The notes beneath the pieces were generated by a model. The model was not told where the DNA came from and ran no database searches. It saw only the letters and a list, made by a program, of their open reading frames with translations. Shown piece by piece: positions 26,523 to 60,361 of a DNA stretch of 64,000 bases. Each line of letters opens with the position of its first letter. The stretch's first letter is position 1. This stretch comes from Methanocella arvoryzae MRE50 (GTDB lineage: Archaea; Halobacteriota; Methanocellia; Methanocellales; Methanocellaceae), in contig NC_009464.1 of assembly GCF_000063445.1 (NCBI RefSeq), positions 3,038,001 to 3,102,000 on the forward strand, written 5' to 3'. Made by a program: the position numbers and the translations under genes.

Positions 26523-26615
26523 ATTTTCGCCATACATAATTAATACTTAATAACTATTTAATTTTTATGTATCATTCTCGCTATTCCTGTGCCTCCATAT
26601 CTGGCAATCTGTATC

Positions 26616-26690
26616 TCCGACAGAGTGCAGCGTTCGTTTGCAGATCGCCTTACAGAACGCCTGCATTCGCAGGCGTTCAAAAGGCGAACT
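26616..26690. repeat. Hairpin-bearing repeat with CAGCGTTCG tag
   Basis: GAACGCCTGC (26655-26664) and GCAGGCGTTC (26669-26678) form a perfect ten-base stem with an ATTC loop, itself nested in TCGCCTT/AAGGCGA. The flanking GTGCAGCGTTCG matches the end tag of the 36801 and 39634 elements. A degenerate copy of the whole stretch lies at 39949-40022. Confidence 0.7.
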
Positions 26691-26769
26691 CCCATACACA
26701 GAAACTGTCAAAATAGTTTTAAGAACGATGCGTGAATGAAAAGGGTATTTTCAAGTAGGGGTATTAAAA

Positions 26770-26945: not shown

Positions 26946-27101
26946 CCGATATACCCCATTTTTCGTAAGACTATACTCCGTGTAAACGGTGCCGGATCGA
27001 CCTAAAATTTTCAGGAATAACTCTAAAATAGGTCTATAATTAACAGATTATGACAGAAACTATATATTAACCGTCGCATGTTTTACGATTGGTGAGCAAT
27101 C

Positions 27102-34502: not shown

Positions 34503-34710
34503 GATACCATCTATGATTGGCGAATTTTAATACGGGAGTACAAGAAAACACGGGTTGAACTGGAGGGCAAGCTGCAATCATCGAATAAATTTAGGGGGGA
34601 CTGGCCATTCTCCTTGCACGATCAGCGGCGGCTCTACTGTTGTACTACAAACAAACAGTTTGTGCGTTTATTGTCCTTATTGATACGTTTTGTATGAGTG
34701 CCCGTACCAT

Positions 34711-34829
34711 TTACACGAAGTACGCGAAGTTCTCAAAGTACAGCAAAAACGGCATGCTGGAAAGAGATCTTAATATAGTATTAATTTGAATATTTTGCGT
34801 ACTTTTCTTACTTTACGTACTTCGTGTAA
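34711..34829. repeat. CACGAAGTACGCGAAGT-type inverted repeat
   Basis: TTACACGAAGTACGCGAAGT with CTCAAAGTAC on the left is answered by GCGTACTTTTCTTACTTTACG and TACTTCGTGTAA on the right, about 56 bases apart. The centre is AT-rich and has no gene. Confidence 0.75.
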
Positions 34830-35017
34830 TTGTAGCTGACCGTCCTAAAAGTTAAGAATAACTCGCGAAAAGTTGTGTTTTCAAGTAGAAGATAAGAATA
34901 ATGGAAATAACTCGGCACCAGGAGGCCTCGTTTTTTTATTAGCTAAGAGTCAGGTGATGATCGGAGCTTTGATCAGGCATAAGTGATGAAACCCTGGCAG
35001 TTCTCAGTTTCTCCGCT

Positions 35018-35408
35018 TGTAAAGCCGCCAGGCTCGCCAAGAGGCCAAGCTCGCCAAGCTATATTTTTAGTGATCGACGTGGTTCCGATCGAAAAAGCCA
35101 TTGGCGTGTCTAGTTCAATGGGGTCCCATCAAAATTAGCTCTTGGCGTGCCTGGCTCCTTGGCGGGCTTGGCGGCATTTTCGACCTATACAGTGCCAACT
35201 TACAATTTCCGATCGAAAATGTCCTTGGCGTTCCATGAAAAATTAGCTCTTGGCGGGCTTGGCTCCTTGGCGGGCTTGGCGGTGTTTTCGACCTATACGG
35301 AGCCAACTATTAATTTTTCATAGCCTCTACCTGAATATTCCATTTTTCATGAGGCAAGTGCCTGGCGGTATTTTCGACCTATACAGGGCCAACTACTAAT
35401 TTTTCACA
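35018..35408. repeat. Cluster of CTTGGCG-type repeats in a 980-base gene-free gap
   Basis: A longer unit recurs: GGCGG(T/C)(A/G)TTTTCGACCTATAC with AG(T/A/G)GCCAACT at about 35170-35201, 35279-35311 and 35364-35395. The first two copies are preceded by TTAGCTCTTGGCG(T/G)GC and CTCCTTGGCGGGCTTGGCGG. The left side holds the complementary GCCAGGCTCGCCAAGAGG. The rest of 34503-35482 shows nothing else. Confidence 0.8.
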
Positions 35409-35482
35409 GGACTATAATCGCTCCCGCTCTTTCCGTATAACGAAAACTGTTAATACCCTCCCCCACTATATTTCTCCTCATC

Positions 35483-36769
35483 ATGGTTGAGGTTCTCGCG
35501 GACGTGGGCGGGAGCCCGGGGAAGGATTGCCGGGGCTTCTGTAAGTACTGCTATTTCAAGCTCGTGAAGGACGTGCCTGCCTTTGGGTGTAAGTATTGTA
35601 TGCCTTTCCAGAAGGGCTGCGACTACTGTACCCGGGGCGTGAAAGAGCAGTACCCGGGATTCAAGCCTTTGATGATGGTGGTCGCGGAGGTCCAGCAGGC
35701 GCTCATGTTCAACCGGGGATGTGTGGATAAGATCACGATCAGCGGCGGCGGCGACGTGAGTTGCTATCCGGAGCTGAAAGAACTTGTCAAGTACTTAGGG
35801 CAGTTCGGGATTCCCATCCACCTGGGCTACACCAGCGGCAAAGGTTTCGAGGGAGCCGACGATGCGGACTTCTTCATAGAGAACGGGGTGACAGAGGTCA
35901 CGTTCACCGTCTTCTCGGCCGACCCGAAAAAGCGCAGGGAGTACATGAACGATAAGCAGCCGAAAGAGTCGCTCGAGGCGCTGCGCCGGTTCTGTAAAGC
36001 GTGCGACGTCTATGCCGCCTCCGTTCTTATTCCCGGGGTGAACGACGGCGAGGACTTGATCAAGACCTGTGATCTGCTGCAAAAGTGGGGCGTCAGGGGT
36101 GTCATCCTGATGCGTTTCGCCAACTCCGAGGAACAGGGCCTGATCCTGAAGAACGGCCCCCTGATCAAAGGCGTGAAGCCCCACACCATCGAGGAGTTCG
36201 AAGATCTCGTCCACGACATCGCCTCAAGGTACAAATTCAGAGTGACCGGCACGCCGCTCGGCGATCCCCTGATCGGCTCCCCCTTCGCCATCGCGCACTA
36301 TCCTAAGCTGTTGAAGAAACTCCCCCCGGTCACAAAGGAGGCGACGCTCATCACCGGCACAGTAGCCGCCCCTATGCTCGCCAGTATCTTTGCACAGCTG
36401 GGAGGCACCGTCAACGTAGTGGCAGCGAAGAAAGATATCGCCTGCCTTCTCACTATAGATGACCTCAAGGGCGTCGATCTGAGGAAGGTCAAAGATACCG
36501 TGATCCTGCCAGGCCGCTCTTTCGTCTGGGATAAGGAAGCCGAGGAAGTACTTTCCGCCGATGGCGTCGAGCGCTTCGTCCGCAGAGGCCCGGACCGGCT
36601 GACTGCTGACGGAGAGATGACTATTGGCATGTCGAGGAAAGAGGTTCTGGAGATCGAAATCGAGGCGTTCACCGAGCTGATCCAGATGATCAACGTCTAC
36701 GGGCTGGAGCCGGTGAAAAAAGTCGCTAAGCCAAAACCTGTCCAGCGGCGAAAGCAGGTTAAAAGCTAA
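35483..36769 (+). CDS. mmp10: Methanogenesis marker protein 10, radical SAM arginine methyltransferase of McrA
   Basis: The 428-residue protein has the cluster motif [10 protein letters not shown] (C16/C20/C23), a cysteine-rich segment [14 protein letters not shown], and the radical SAM barrel ([13 protein letters not shown]). A conserved C-terminal domain follows ([19 protein letters not shown]). Mmp10 methylates a buried arginine near the active site of methyl-CoM reductase using cobalamin and SAM. It belongs functionally with the marker operon at 40-47 kb. The tail is lysine-rich. It starts about 75 bases after a repeat cluster. Confidence 0.93.
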
Positions 36770-36800
36770 GAATATTATGCGAACTTCCTGATGACTCATG

Positions 36801-37099
36801 TGTGGTGAGATAGCAAGACGAACGCTGCGCTGTGCCAAACCTCACTGATTTCACAGATTGAAACAGATTCCACAGATTCCTATTGGATACCACGGATGGC
36901 GACGGATTTCACAGGTAACCAAAAATTATTCTGTCGATTATCTTATGATTGCTATCGTTGATCGACTAATATTAGCGTATTCCTTCTGTGATATCGAGTG
37001 GTAATCTGTGGATTCAGCAGAGGAATCTGTGGAATCAAACGTAATCTGTGGCATCTGTGAGGATTAGCACAGCGCAGCGTTCGATTTGCTGTCTCGTGG
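36801..37099. mobile_element. ~300-bp non-coding element with terminal inverted repeats, copy A
   Basis: The ends match as inverted repeats of at least 24 bases (AGCAAGACGAACGCTGCGCT onward at 36812-36835; its complement at 37067-37090, two mismatches), continuing imperfectly to GTGGTGAGA/TCTCGTGG. Subterminal arms are CACAGATT-type units on the left and AATCTGTGG units on the right. The AT-rich centre has no coding frame. By eye it is about 85% identical to copy B at 39634. It looks like a MITE, although no transposase is present here. Confidence 0.78.
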
Positions 37100-37232
37100 A
37101 GCCTGTGCAATTACGTCCGGCGCATCATAGCGTTCTTGTACGTTCACCGACACAGAAACAACAGATTGCGAATTTTCTTTTCACCATAAACATCAGTATA
37201 CCATATATTATCCCTCATCCGAACCATGATCG

Positions 37233-37832
37233 ATGCAGATCTCTCCCCTCCAGTTCGAGGTTAAGAACCGGGACGGTTACGTTCGATGTGAGTTCTACGA
37301 GGGCGGTTCGGACAAAGGCGTCATCTACATGCATGGGGTGGGCGGCGGCACTCATGGCCCGTCTGACATCTATCACCCGCTGGCTGAGGACCTTCAAAAA
37401 TCGGGCATCTCTTCGTTGTTGATAAACTGCCGGTATGATTCTGCGCTGGATGAGTGCATCTCTGACCTCCTGGCCTGTATCGAGTACATGGACCAGGAAC
37501 TGCACATCGACAAGATCGGGCTTATCGGATGGTCTTTCGGGGGTGCGGTGGTCATCTCTGCCGCAGCATTAGATCAGCGGGTTAGAACTGTGGTGACCGT
37601 AGCCAGCCAGTCATATGGGACTGACGGCGTGGCAGACATTGCCCCAAGGCCTGTCCTGCTCATTCACGGCACCGGCGATAAGACTTTGACCTACCGGTGC
37701 TCGGTCGATATTGCCCGGAGGGCTGGCGAGCCGAAAAAGCTGGTGCTGTTCGAGAATGCCGATCACGGGATCAGCCAGAATAGAAAAGAAATGTATGATC
37801 TGATCCGTAACTGGTTCCTGGAGAATCTATGA
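37233..37832 (+). CDS. Alpha/beta hydrolase, dienelactone-hydrolase-like
   Basis: The 199-residue protein has the nucleophile elbow GWSFGG near residue 95, an oxyanion-strand segment YMHGVGGG, LLIHGTGDKT carrying the acid Asp, and the catalytic His in NADHGI. It should cleave esters or peptides in the cytoplasm; the substrate is unknown. The fold is complete though compact. It converges on the CMD-family gene with no gap between their stops. Confidence 0.82.
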   Translation: MQISPLQFEVKNRDGYVRCEFYEGGSDKGVIYMHGVGGGTHGPSDIYHPLAEDLQKSGISSLLINCRYDSALDECISDLLACIEYMDQELHIDKIGLIGWSFGGAVVISAAALDQRVRTVVTVASQSYGTDGVADIAPRPVLLIHGTGDKTLTYRCSVDIARRAGEPKKLVLFENADHGISQNRKEMYDLIRNWFLENL

Positions 37833-38324
37833 TCAGTCCGTCTTATCGTTCCCGTTCAGATTTTTGTGGTTGTTCTCGTAGACGATGCAGCCCGGGCATT
37901 CGTCCTTGAACGCCTCGGTATCCCGGTGCTCTTCCTTGTCCGCCTCGAACACCCTCATCGCCTGGGCGAGGGCTGCGGTATTTGACAGCGCGCTGGCCAG
38001 AAGGATGGTTTCGAACACTTTCTCTTCAGGGATGCCTTTTCGCCTGGCGACTCTCAGGTGCATCTTCAGGCAGTGGTCGCACTTCAGGGCGGTTGCAACA
38101 CCAATAGTTATAAGCTCTACCGTCGTCTCGTCGAGGTGCTCTGGATTGCGGAGCACTGCATCGTCGTAGATGATCTTGGGGAGCAGCACGTTCGGCCTGT
38201 CGCTCATCGCCTTGAGGATGAACGGGACTTCACCATAGTCGTCCTCGATGTTCTTGAGCAGTTCCTGTACTGCGTCGTCAGGCTCTTTTCCGAAGATTCC
38301 CTTTAGCGTGTTTTCGAACTTCAC
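37833..38324 (-). CDS. Carboxymuconolactone decarboxylase / AhpD-like protein
   Basis: The protein of about 163 residues has the redox motif CDHCLKMH of the AhpD/CMD family and the flanking helices (ELITIGVATALK and ETILLASALSN). Such proteins act as thiol peroxidase or reductase partners. A C-terminal extra pair DECPGC may also be redox active. GTG 38324 is chosen from the conserved start KFENTLKGIFG; the open frame reaches 38426 but the extra part is not family-like. Exact reaction unknown. Confidence 0.8.
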   Translation of the reverse strand: MKFENTLKGIFGKEPDDAVQELLKNIEDDYGEVPFILKAMSDRPNVLLPKIIYDDAVLRNPEHLDETTVELITIGVATALKCDHCLKMHLRVARRKGIPEEKVFETILLASALSNTAALAQAMRVFEADKEEHRDTEAFKDECPGCIVYENNHKNLNGNDKTD

Positions 38325-38434
38325 CCTTATCCCTGCTATGAAAATGATAGTGTAGTTATCCGTCCAGGAGTATTTATAGTAACCGGAACACACGGGCGGA
38401 ATGCTTTTGTGTCCGGACTGACACATTCCTACCG

Positions 38435-38809
38435 ATGACGCTACAGCGGCTAATGCCCTTTATCTCGATGTTCATCTACTCCCTCATCATCGTCGTCGCC
38501 AGCCTCCTGCTGGCAGGCCTCTACATCATCCTGACCGGGGGAGGAAACCTAATCGTAGCCCTTTCGAACCTGTTATTCATCGAGAGCGGCATCATACTCC
38601 TGATCGGCGCCTCAATAGAGTTCTTCCATCTCGCAGGCCGGGACGATCGGGTGGTTGTGTCTACTAAGGTCCTCTTTCCCATAAGAGCCGGCGAGAGTAA
38701 GGCTGATGCCCATAACGTTGAGTTACACAACCCGGGGTGGCTGCTTATTTTTCTTGGAGCGCTGCTCTTCGCATACTCACTTACTTTAGTCCTGCTTTTC
38801 GCAAAATAG
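38435..38809 (+). CDS. Small membrane protein
   Basis: The 124-residue protein has three predicted membrane helices (about residues 9-32, 39-63, 101-122) with a polar segment between the last two containing LFPIRAGESKADAHN. No family is recognised. It lies divergently from the CMD gene and 60 bases before the exported-domain gene, possibly in one transcript with it. Confidence 0.65.
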   Translation: MTLQRLMPFISMFIYSLIIVVASLLLAGLYIILTGGGNLIVALSNLLFIESGIILLIGASIEFFHLAGRDDRVVVSTKVLFPIRAGESKADAHNVELHNPGWLLIFLGALLFAYSLTLVLLFAK

Positions 38810-38868
38810 GGTGGTGCTTACAGGACTATTTCAAAAAGTATAAATCCTTATATCAGGATGTTTAATCT

Positions 38869-39513
38869 ATGCTCGGCCGTACTACCTCGATTCTCATCGC
38901 GGTGTTCGTCTTCCTGGCTCTGACAGCTCCGGCTGCCACTGCAGATCAAAACATACCTTTGCCACAGACAGAGGAATTTTTATACAAGGACAAGCAACGG
39001 CCGGTTATCATCCACCTGCTCGTGATCAACACGACTGACAAGCCACTCAGCAACGTCTTCCCGCCGGAGAATTCCCAGAACCTCAAGTGGGTACGCCTGT
39101 TCTACAGCTATGAGAATACCGGTGATTCGCAGGTCAAGGCCTTCATCAAGGTCATCTTTGTGGATAGCAATGGCAATCAGTACCAGAACGATAATGATGA
39201 GTACACTGGTGAATCTGTCCTGCCTCATACTATCACAGACCCCATGTTTATCGAAGTGCCGGTGCCTAAGAATGCCGAGATCACCCAGTTCATCATCCGT
39301 CAGGGCTTCTACGAGACTGTTTACCAGATTCCCAGGGTTACGGCAACTCCGACACCCTCCTTACAGATAACGCCCACTGCTGCAGGCACTCCCACGACTG
39401 ATGCAGGCAACCGGGGCTTCGACGGGTGCCTGCCCTTCATTCCCTTCGCTATGGCAGGAGGCCTGGCGGCGGCAGGAATGGTTATCAACCGCGGTGGATT
39501 CCGCAGAAGATAA
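38869..39513 (+). CDS. Exported domain with Thr/Pro linker and C-terminal anchor, paralogue of 19871
   Basis: The 214-residue protein has a signal peptide (residues 1-25, ending ATADQ), one beta-rich domain with LFYSYENTGDSQVKAFIKV and FIIRQGFYETVYQ, a Thr/Pro linker, a C-terminal helix and a basic RRR end. The plan and core match the protein at 19871-20512, encoded 18 kb away on the other strand. It is probably membrane-anchored and faces outward. Domain family and ligand are unknown. Confidence 0.72.
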   Translation: MLGRTTSILIAVFVFLALTAPAATADQNIPLPQTEEFLYKDKQRPVIIHLLVINTTDKPLSNVFPPENSQNLKWVRLFYSYENTGDSQVKAFIKVIFVDSNGNQYQNDNDEYTGESVLPHTITDPMFIEVPVPKNAEITQFIIRQGFYETVYQIPRVTATPTPSLQITPTAAGTPTTDAGNRGFDGCLPFIPFAMAGGLAAAGMVINRGGFRRR

Positions 39514-39633
39514 CTATTATATCTTTACTCGGTTTTTCAACTGTTGTCCGATCAAGTCGTCGTGCGTATACTATAGCATATCCTCGTATGAACGTTGTCA
39601 AACGCTGTGCTGTGCCTCACTTGATAGTACAGG

Positions 39634-39935
39634 CTCCTCGAGAAAGCAAAACGAACGCTGCGCTGTGCAAAACCTCACAGATTTCACGGATTGAAACAGA
39701 ATCCACAGATTTCTAATTGATAGCACAGATTACGATTGATTTCACAGATAACTAAAAATATTCTGATCGATTGTCTTGCGATTGCCATCGGTGATCGATT
39801 ATTATTATAGTATTCCTTCTGTGATATCGTGTAGTAATCTGTGGATTCAGCAGAGGGAATCTGTGGAATCAGTCAGAATCTGTGGCATCTGTGTGGATTG
39901 GCACAGCGCAGCGTTCGTCTTGCAATCTCACCACA
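39634..39935. mobile_element. ~300-bp non-coding element with terminal inverted repeats, copy B
   Basis: The terminal repeats are at 39645-39668 and 39901-39924 (CGAACGCTGCGCTGTGC and its exact complement). The right edge runs on through TCTTGCAATCTCACCACA, which is the complement of the left edge of copy A. The internal arms carry CACAGATTT/AATCTGTGG units; TATTCCTTCTGTGATATCG in the centre-right is shared with copy A. No coding potential. A partial extra tag (AACGCTGTGCTGTGCCTCAC) lies just before it at 39601. Confidence 0.78.
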
Positions 39936-39948
39936 TAAGAGCAATTAG

Positions 39949-40022
39949 AGAATGCACAGCGAAGCATTCGTCTTCTAGATCGTCTTCCAGGACGCCTGCA
40001 TGCGCTGACTTTTAAAAGGCTA
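39949..40022. repeat. Degenerate copy of the 26616 repeat
   Basis: GCACAGCGAAGCATTCGTCTT followed by TTCCAGGACGCCTGCATGCG and AAAAGGCTAAC parallels the 26616-26690 stretch in order and spacing, but the hairpin has decayed. It adjoins copy B of the ~300-bp element. Confidence 0.5.
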
Positions 40023-40081
40023 ACATCTGGGCACAGACACATGTCCAGAAAGTTCCAGGAGCGACAATAAATAGAAGAACA

Positions 40082-59788: not shown

Positions 59789-60361
59789 ATGAAACTGTTT
59801 AGATTTCTGCAAATAGCCATGATTTTGGCCCTTGTAGCCTCGCTGATCCCCGCCGCAGTAGCCCACCCTGAAGAAGCTACTCTGACGGCAAGCTTCAGCT
59901 CCGACGTCACGACTGGCGCTGCCCCGCTCACCGTCCACTTCATGGACCGTAGCACGGGCAACCCCACCGGCTGGCAGTGGGACTTCGGCGACGGCAGCTC
60001 CTCGACCCGGCAGGACCCGACCTACACTTTCCAGGCTCCCGGCACTTACAACGTAACGCTGACCGTAACTGACGGCTATGTGAACAGCACGGCCAGCAGC
60101 GAGATCGTCGTAACCCCGGCCCCGTCGGCCACGCCCCAGCCTATCCGTGTAGTGCCTGTGCCGGTTCACCCGGTCAAGCCAGGCGACGGCCCGGATAAGG
60201 TCAAGAAGCCTGACTTTGGCAAGAAGCCGGATAAGGTGAAGAAGCCTGACTTTGGCAAGAAGCCGGATAAGGTCAAGAAGCCGGATAAGGTGAAGAAGCC
60301 CGACAGGCAGAAGCGCGGTGGCGAAAAGGGTAATTCTGACAACCCCGTCCGTCACTTTTAG
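59789..60361 (+). CDS. Exported PKD-domain protein with Lys-Pro repeat tail
   Basis: The 190-residue protein has a signal peptide (ending VAHPEEA), one PKD domain (GAAPLTVHFMDRS, GWQWDFGDGSSS, YTFQAPGTYNVTLTVTD), a Pro-rich linker, and a very basic tail. The tail repeats KKPDKV and KKPDFG-type units about eight times. PKD domains are common on archaeal surfaces. The tail could bind anionic wall polymers, DNA or the S-layer. The repeats are exact enough to expand or shrink. Confidence 0.85.
   Translation: MKLFRFLQIAMILALVASLIPAAVAHPEEATLTASFSSDVTTGAAPLTVHFMDRSTGNPTGWQWDFGDGSSSTRQDPTYTFQAPGTYNVTLTVTDGYVNSTASSEIVVTPAPSATPQPIRVVPVPVHPVKPGDGPDKVKKPDFGKKPDKVKKPDFGKKPDKVKKPDKVKKPDRQKRGGEKGNSDNPVRHF

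Follow-up and report, generated by a model that had tools for sequence, protein, structure and literature searches.

The two repeated elements at positions 36819-37083 (copy 1) and 39652-39917 (copy 2) of a 64,000-nucleotide stretch of the Methanocella arvoryzae MRE50 genome, referred to here as the window, are most probably copies of a species-specific, non-autonomous, nested, BIME-like fold-back family of the MITE type, built of interchangeable parts; the probability that we assign to this reading is about 0.74. The members of the family have the appearance of mobile DNA parasites. Each element is a long imperfect palindrome, in which inward-facing 17-bp tags bound ACAGATT/AATCTGT arms, and further tag units of types A, B and C are located outside the core, at steps of 51-54 or 73-76 nt.

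Both window elements are imperfect palindromes from end to end, contain no genes, and are bounded by CGAACGCTGCGCTGTGC and its complement, with the exact tags being located at positions 36819-36835(+) and 37067-37083(-) in copy 1, and at positions 39652-39668(+) and 39901-39917(-) in copy 2; the two D-type cores, delimited by alignment, folding and tag search, include these inner tags. The copies are spaced 2833-2834 nt apart and match without gaps over 217 and 74 nt, with 84% and 86% identity, in agreement with the sequence-only reading that preceded this analysis, which had described two near-identical elements with common inverted ends and an identity of ~85%. Folding gives -153 kcal/mol (z -15.4) for copy 1 and -136 kcal/mol (z -11.5) for copy 2, and no shuffled sequence was as good in either case. 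Allowing up to 3 mismatches, the tag occurs 7 times in the window, against 0.73 occurrences expected. Neither copy contains a transposase, as had already been noticed, and a known structured RNA was rejected, as the window has no Rfam match.

The repeated region extends past the ends at which the elements had previously been placed, reaching about 36779-37162 in copy 1 and about 39518-40069 in copy 2. The core of copy 1 is preceded by a degenerate left outer unit of type B (36779-36818, plus strand) and followed by right outer units (37084-37162, minus strand), which comprise an A spacer up to position 37119, a degenerate outer tag (37120-37136) and a C-type terminus that ends with ACAAC at position 37162. 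The core of copy 2 is flanked by a left outer tag (39599-39615) with an A spacer (39616-39651) on the plus strand (39599-39651), and by a B spacer (39918-39953) with a right outer tag (39954-39970) on the minus strand (39918-39970), in both cases at a step of 53 nt; the tags near 39601 and 39949 that had been taken for solitary belong to copy 2 as its outer tags, with the usual 53-nt spacing of the family. The core of copy 2 is inverted relative to its own A and B units. Both copies belong to subfamily D, and copy 2 additionally has decayed ends of the F frame, a left one of the TATAGT...GGAC type (39518-39556, plus strand) and a right one (40040-40069, minus strand), with scores of 26 and 32, whereas shuffled sequences reached at most 23. 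A third family member of the window is located at positions 26596-26725, where an F-type element is represented by its right half, in a decayed state (77% identity to an F-type copy over 131 bp, E 8e-20), with a tag with 2 mismatches at positions 26621-26636; this is the tag near 26616 that had also been considered to be solitary.

The search of the organism's own genome, a single contig of 3,179,916 bp, has revealed at least 40 near-full-length D-like copies, with identities of 76-88% and in both orientations. With up to 2 mismatches, the tag has 256 matches (128 + 128) in the whole genome, against none for the reversed control, while at least 265 tags with up to 3 mismatches form 98 clusters, i.e. 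at least 92 loci after joining the clusters that are split by an insertion sequence. The census was conducted on stretches fetched around the listed tags, its total is about 92 with a few loci possibly missing, and the 92 loci correspond to about 0.96% of the contig. The distance of 2.8 kb between the two window copies could point to a single local segmental duplication, but the copies are not unique in the genome, their flanking genes differ and were not duplicated along with them, and the two resemble each other about as much as either resembles distant copies; this origin, refuted by the genome-wide copies, retains next to no probability.

The order of the tags is the same at every locus: tags on the plus strand always precede tags on the minus strand, and no outward-facing pair occurs. 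Same-strand tags keep the 51-54 or 73-76 nt spacing with a single exception (275 nt), while the inward tag-to-tag spans cluster at 152-171 nt in subfamilies E and F, and at 244-250, 262-269 or 281-303 nt in subfamily D. Repeats of ACAGATT/AATCTGT make up the hairpin arms, between which the centre is variable; the outer units fall into the sequence types A, B and C, and roughly a quarter of the loci have a MITE frame with its own terminal inverted repeats (TIRs). Conservation continues past the outermost tag and stops after 25-28 nt, at RTTG; the tag, which had been taken for the end of the element, is therefore an internal repeated block of a terminal unit of roughly 44 nt. The 17-bp inward-facing tags are probably protein-binding sites. 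At positions 526881-527272 (L076), six C-type tag units are arranged in tandem beside one core, at 75-nt steps, an array that is likely to be variable in number and of use for strain typing. We have rejected a CRISPR, because the spacers, too, are conserved repeats and because the tags stand in inverted orientation, and we have also rejected, by eye, long tag-to-tag inserts as autonomous copies: the 133-aa ORF of one of them (L036) does not resemble a transposase, and another (L035) has no substantial ORF.

The suggestion that the elements are MITEs or folded elements stands as far as a dispersed MITE-like, fold-back family is concerned, with ~92 loci, TIRs and 4-bp target duplications in subfamily E, and subfamily F inserted into a repeat that also has empty copies; it does not extend to a target duplication of the D type. 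The longest words shared by the flanks of 49 D loci are not above those of cross-pairs, in line with the earlier remark that no target duplication was visible, and subfamily D is therefore filed as MITE-like and not as a proven MITE. Among 24 D copies, identity reaches 99% in the tags, 84% in the left arm, 91% in the right arm and 82% in the centre; the outer arms have been swapped in five of these copies and made identical in four, which, together with the inverted core of copy 2, suggests recombination between inverted arms. None of 64 stem pairs shows a compensatory change; on this basis, we have rejected selection on stem pairing, and do not claim that the structure as such is under selection.

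In the stretches analysed around the elements, no transposase that mobilises subfamily D was found, and a motif search of the surroundings of the loci yielded no Y1-like ORF with an HUH motif within 3 kb of any locus. The latter result bears on the possibility that subfamily D is an archaeal counterpart of the REPINs, i.e. an inverted-tag hairpin that a Y1 (RAYT/IS200-like) transposase would move in single-stranded form without duplicating the target, with E and F being later captures by DDE-type MITEs. The inverted tag doublets, with the tags being the most conserved part, are consistent with such an origin, as are the ordered tandem clusters, the intergenic location and the lack of target duplication, all of which are REPIN traits (PMC3116915); RAYTs, however, normally adjoin their REPs (PMC3116915), and neither the cores of ~266 nt nor the E and F frames, with their TIRs and 4-bp duplication, fit this origin, which we regard as improbable.

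Subfamily E is a clear MITE. The E element has a length of 488 bp, its tags read CGATCG, and it carries the 18-bp TIR CAGGCTGTCTCATAATTC on both sides; at least one E end is found at about 20 loci, and exact 4-bp target duplications flank six of the ten two-ended E copies, compared with 0.6% for cross-paired flanks. An autonomous partner with this TIR was not found in the genome, where the TIR occurs at E elements and at one unpaired site only; the TIR-like site in question, at genome position 2545228, was rejected as a partner, having no transposase beside it. An autonomous insertion sequence (IS) with E ends may lie in other strains, and we therefore infer that the partner of subfamily E acts in trans. 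In the metagenome-derived genome of Methanocella sp. PtaU1.Bin125, we have identified a 148-bp MITE (L137:366-513) with the same TIR and the target duplication CAAG, but with an unrelated interior that lacks both the tag and the palindromic core; because this element shares the TIR without the tag, the E frame would be a MITE of the genus Methanocella that carries the tagged palindrome in the present species. The same 18-mer, CAGGCTGTCTCATAATTC, is also contained in a common repeated stretch ending with GTCTCGTAAGAATTATGAGACAGCCTGCC, on three contigs of a Nanoarchaeota metagenome-assembled genome (L139:2515-2595, L141:3423-3503 and L144:5116-5196).

In subfamily F, three near-identical tagged palindromes with TATAGT...ACTATA ends (L038, L040 and L053) are inserted in a second repeat, G, and empty G copies of the same genome align across the insertion point, so that filled and empty targets can be compared. 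A 7-bp target duplication, CTTCGTG, is exact in one of the three copies (L038), and is weak evidence, because the target, i.e. the arms of G, consists of 10-bp tandem repeats. F ends are present on both sides at six loci, copy 2 of the window among them. The G repeat is itself a MITE-type family, with GTACACGAA-like arms, ends that resemble those of the F type, and some ten copies or more genome-wide (including L127-L135); in the window, a G-type MITE with 10-bp tandem arms, of the kind that hosts F insertions elsewhere, is located at positions 34669-34863 on the minus strand, and a G-type fragment at positions 26974-27025. An intergenic stretch of the window at about 35302-35409, just upstream of the gene at 35483, matches 12 other fetched loci and represents a further repeat family, while positions 60191-60300 hold an 18/36-bp tandem repeat, CCGGATAAGGTCAAGAAG, that is possibly coding; at positions 3163220-3163541 (L150) of the genome of a different archaeon of the phylum, ACAGATTCA is repeated as a 9-bp tandem array.

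In three pairs of tags, the two tags are separated by about 1.56-1.6 kb, and the interval holds a near-identical DDE insertion sequence of 1393 bp, with CAGT ends, 4-6 bp duplications and a single DDE gene (PF01609). These traits correspond to those of the ISH3 elements, which have CRGT ends, lengths of 1225-1500 bp and repeats of about 5 bp (PMC2266710), and the archaeal host agrees as well; the best NCBIfam family of the transposase is ISH3, but with 97.7 bits against a cut-off of 225, and we therefore call this divergent relative “ISH3-like”. The genome contains five copies (at genome positions 237718, 951103, 1859877, 2123401 and 2643478; L091-L095), which are 99.9-100% identical and have probably been active recently. 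All five are located inside tagged palindromes, and four of them, judged from the duplications, split an arm repeat as AATC/TGT. A second, single-copy ISH3-like element (1265861-1267267, L160), with a 378-aa transposase, is located in an E-type palindrome, with the duplication TCTGT recognised by eye. Even with insertion restricted to intergenic DNA, whose share (about 19%) was taken from the window, six out of six such elements would fall within the loci by chance with a probability of about 2e-8. The ISH3-like element was rejected as the parent of the family with the tags as its ends: it has CAGT ends and duplications of its own, its insertion points differ between subfamilies, and the subtraction of its length leaves a core of normal length in two E copies.

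The family is essentially entirely intergenic, with only 2 of 259 tags of the extended loci being located inside predicted genes (genes were predicted by codon usage). Convergent gaps account for 42 of 90 gaps with tags, compared with 36 of the 252 tag-free gaps in their neighbourhood (odds ratio 5.25, p 2.8e-9). The outer tag lies at a median of 80 nt from 3' ends and of 154 nt from 5' ends. Among the genomes searched, the family is species-specific, its occurrence in the species being based on one genome: the core has no match in 40 relatives, one of the same genus included, the tag with up to 1 mismatch has 0-1 copies in each of 20 relatives against 225 in Methanocella arvoryzae MRE50, and arms with triplets of ACAGATT occur 28 times here, whereas of 294 other genomes from the phylum 13 contain them, at low numbers. 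No exact match to the core end is present in a collection of 84,980 species genomes, from which records of the organism's own genome were possibly excluded.

This context could also be expected of structures that are under selection in the service of the host, e.g. bidirectional terminators, stabilisers of mRNA 3' ends or sites for nucleoid proteins, with dispersal being secondary. The very stable hairpins, the enrichment between convergent genes close to 3' ends and the high conservation of the tags are compatible with such a role, but the same bias is expected if selection purges insertions in promoters, the stems lack compensatory changes and Rfam matches, the family is absent from all relatives searched, whose orthologous genes do without it, and many copies are decayed or deleted; we consider host service to be a quite improbable primary explanation.

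Compared with known systems, the family shares with prokaryotic MITEs, which are known in archaea, its short, gene-less and multicopy elements with TIRs, target duplications and long hairpins, mostly intergenic and sometimes inserted into each other, as is known in pneumococcus (PMC10969869); it differs from them in its modular inward tag arrays and in its three nested layers (G, the F/E frame and the tagged palindrome), in that no partner IS was found, and in that type D has no target duplication. With BIMEs/REPs and REPINs (PMC2817692, PMC3116915), it shares short, conserved tags that are paired as inverted doublets, standard spacers, an arrangement in ordered clusters, an intergenic location and being targeted by IS, whereas its tags never alternate outward, its core is a palindrome of ~266 nt (or ~166 nt), its host is archaeal, and no Y1 transposase is seen beside the elements. 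Several IS families insert into palindromic REPs in bacteria, e.g. IS1397, ISPa11 and ISPpu9, with every copy of one IS being located in a palindromic repeat at a preferred point (PMC1525189); the element that behaves similarly here is an archaeal, ISH3-like DDE element, which lands in AATCTGT arm repeats.

The fold-back family that we propose would have spread through transposases acting in trans, lost or unseen today, which would have moved the tagged palindromes as well as the frames by which these had been captured; subfamily D, both window copies included, would have moved in a comparable way. Recombination between inverted arms would have flipped or homogenised the arms, and local tandem duplication may have lengthened the outer arrays. 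Copies would persist near the 3' ends of genes, foremost between convergent genes, where they presumably do least harm, and resident ISH3-like IS would land in their arms. We also entertain, as a speculative extension that is unlikely to hold, that subfamily D is an archaeal hairpin family, unlike known MITE and RAYT systems, spread without target duplication by an enzyme that reads the inward tag arrays, with the palindromes having become, between convergent genes, a safe harbour as well as a bidirectional barrier to transcription, and with an ISH3-type transposase that targets the AATCTGT arms.

MITEs and nested elements are already known, and no published description of the present family was found in the open-access literature; we therefore regard the nested, BIME-like fold-back family of the MITE type as new. 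It accounts for about 1% of the genome of a cultured methanogen, and documents in an archaeon modular palindromes that are nested and BIME-like. In addition, it provides an apparent case of an archaeal ISH3-type element that targets a palindromic repeat, a habit that has been described for bacterial IS in the literature searched. Lastly, the filled and empty target repeats found in one genome offer a readable history of insertions, and make the mobility of the family testable.
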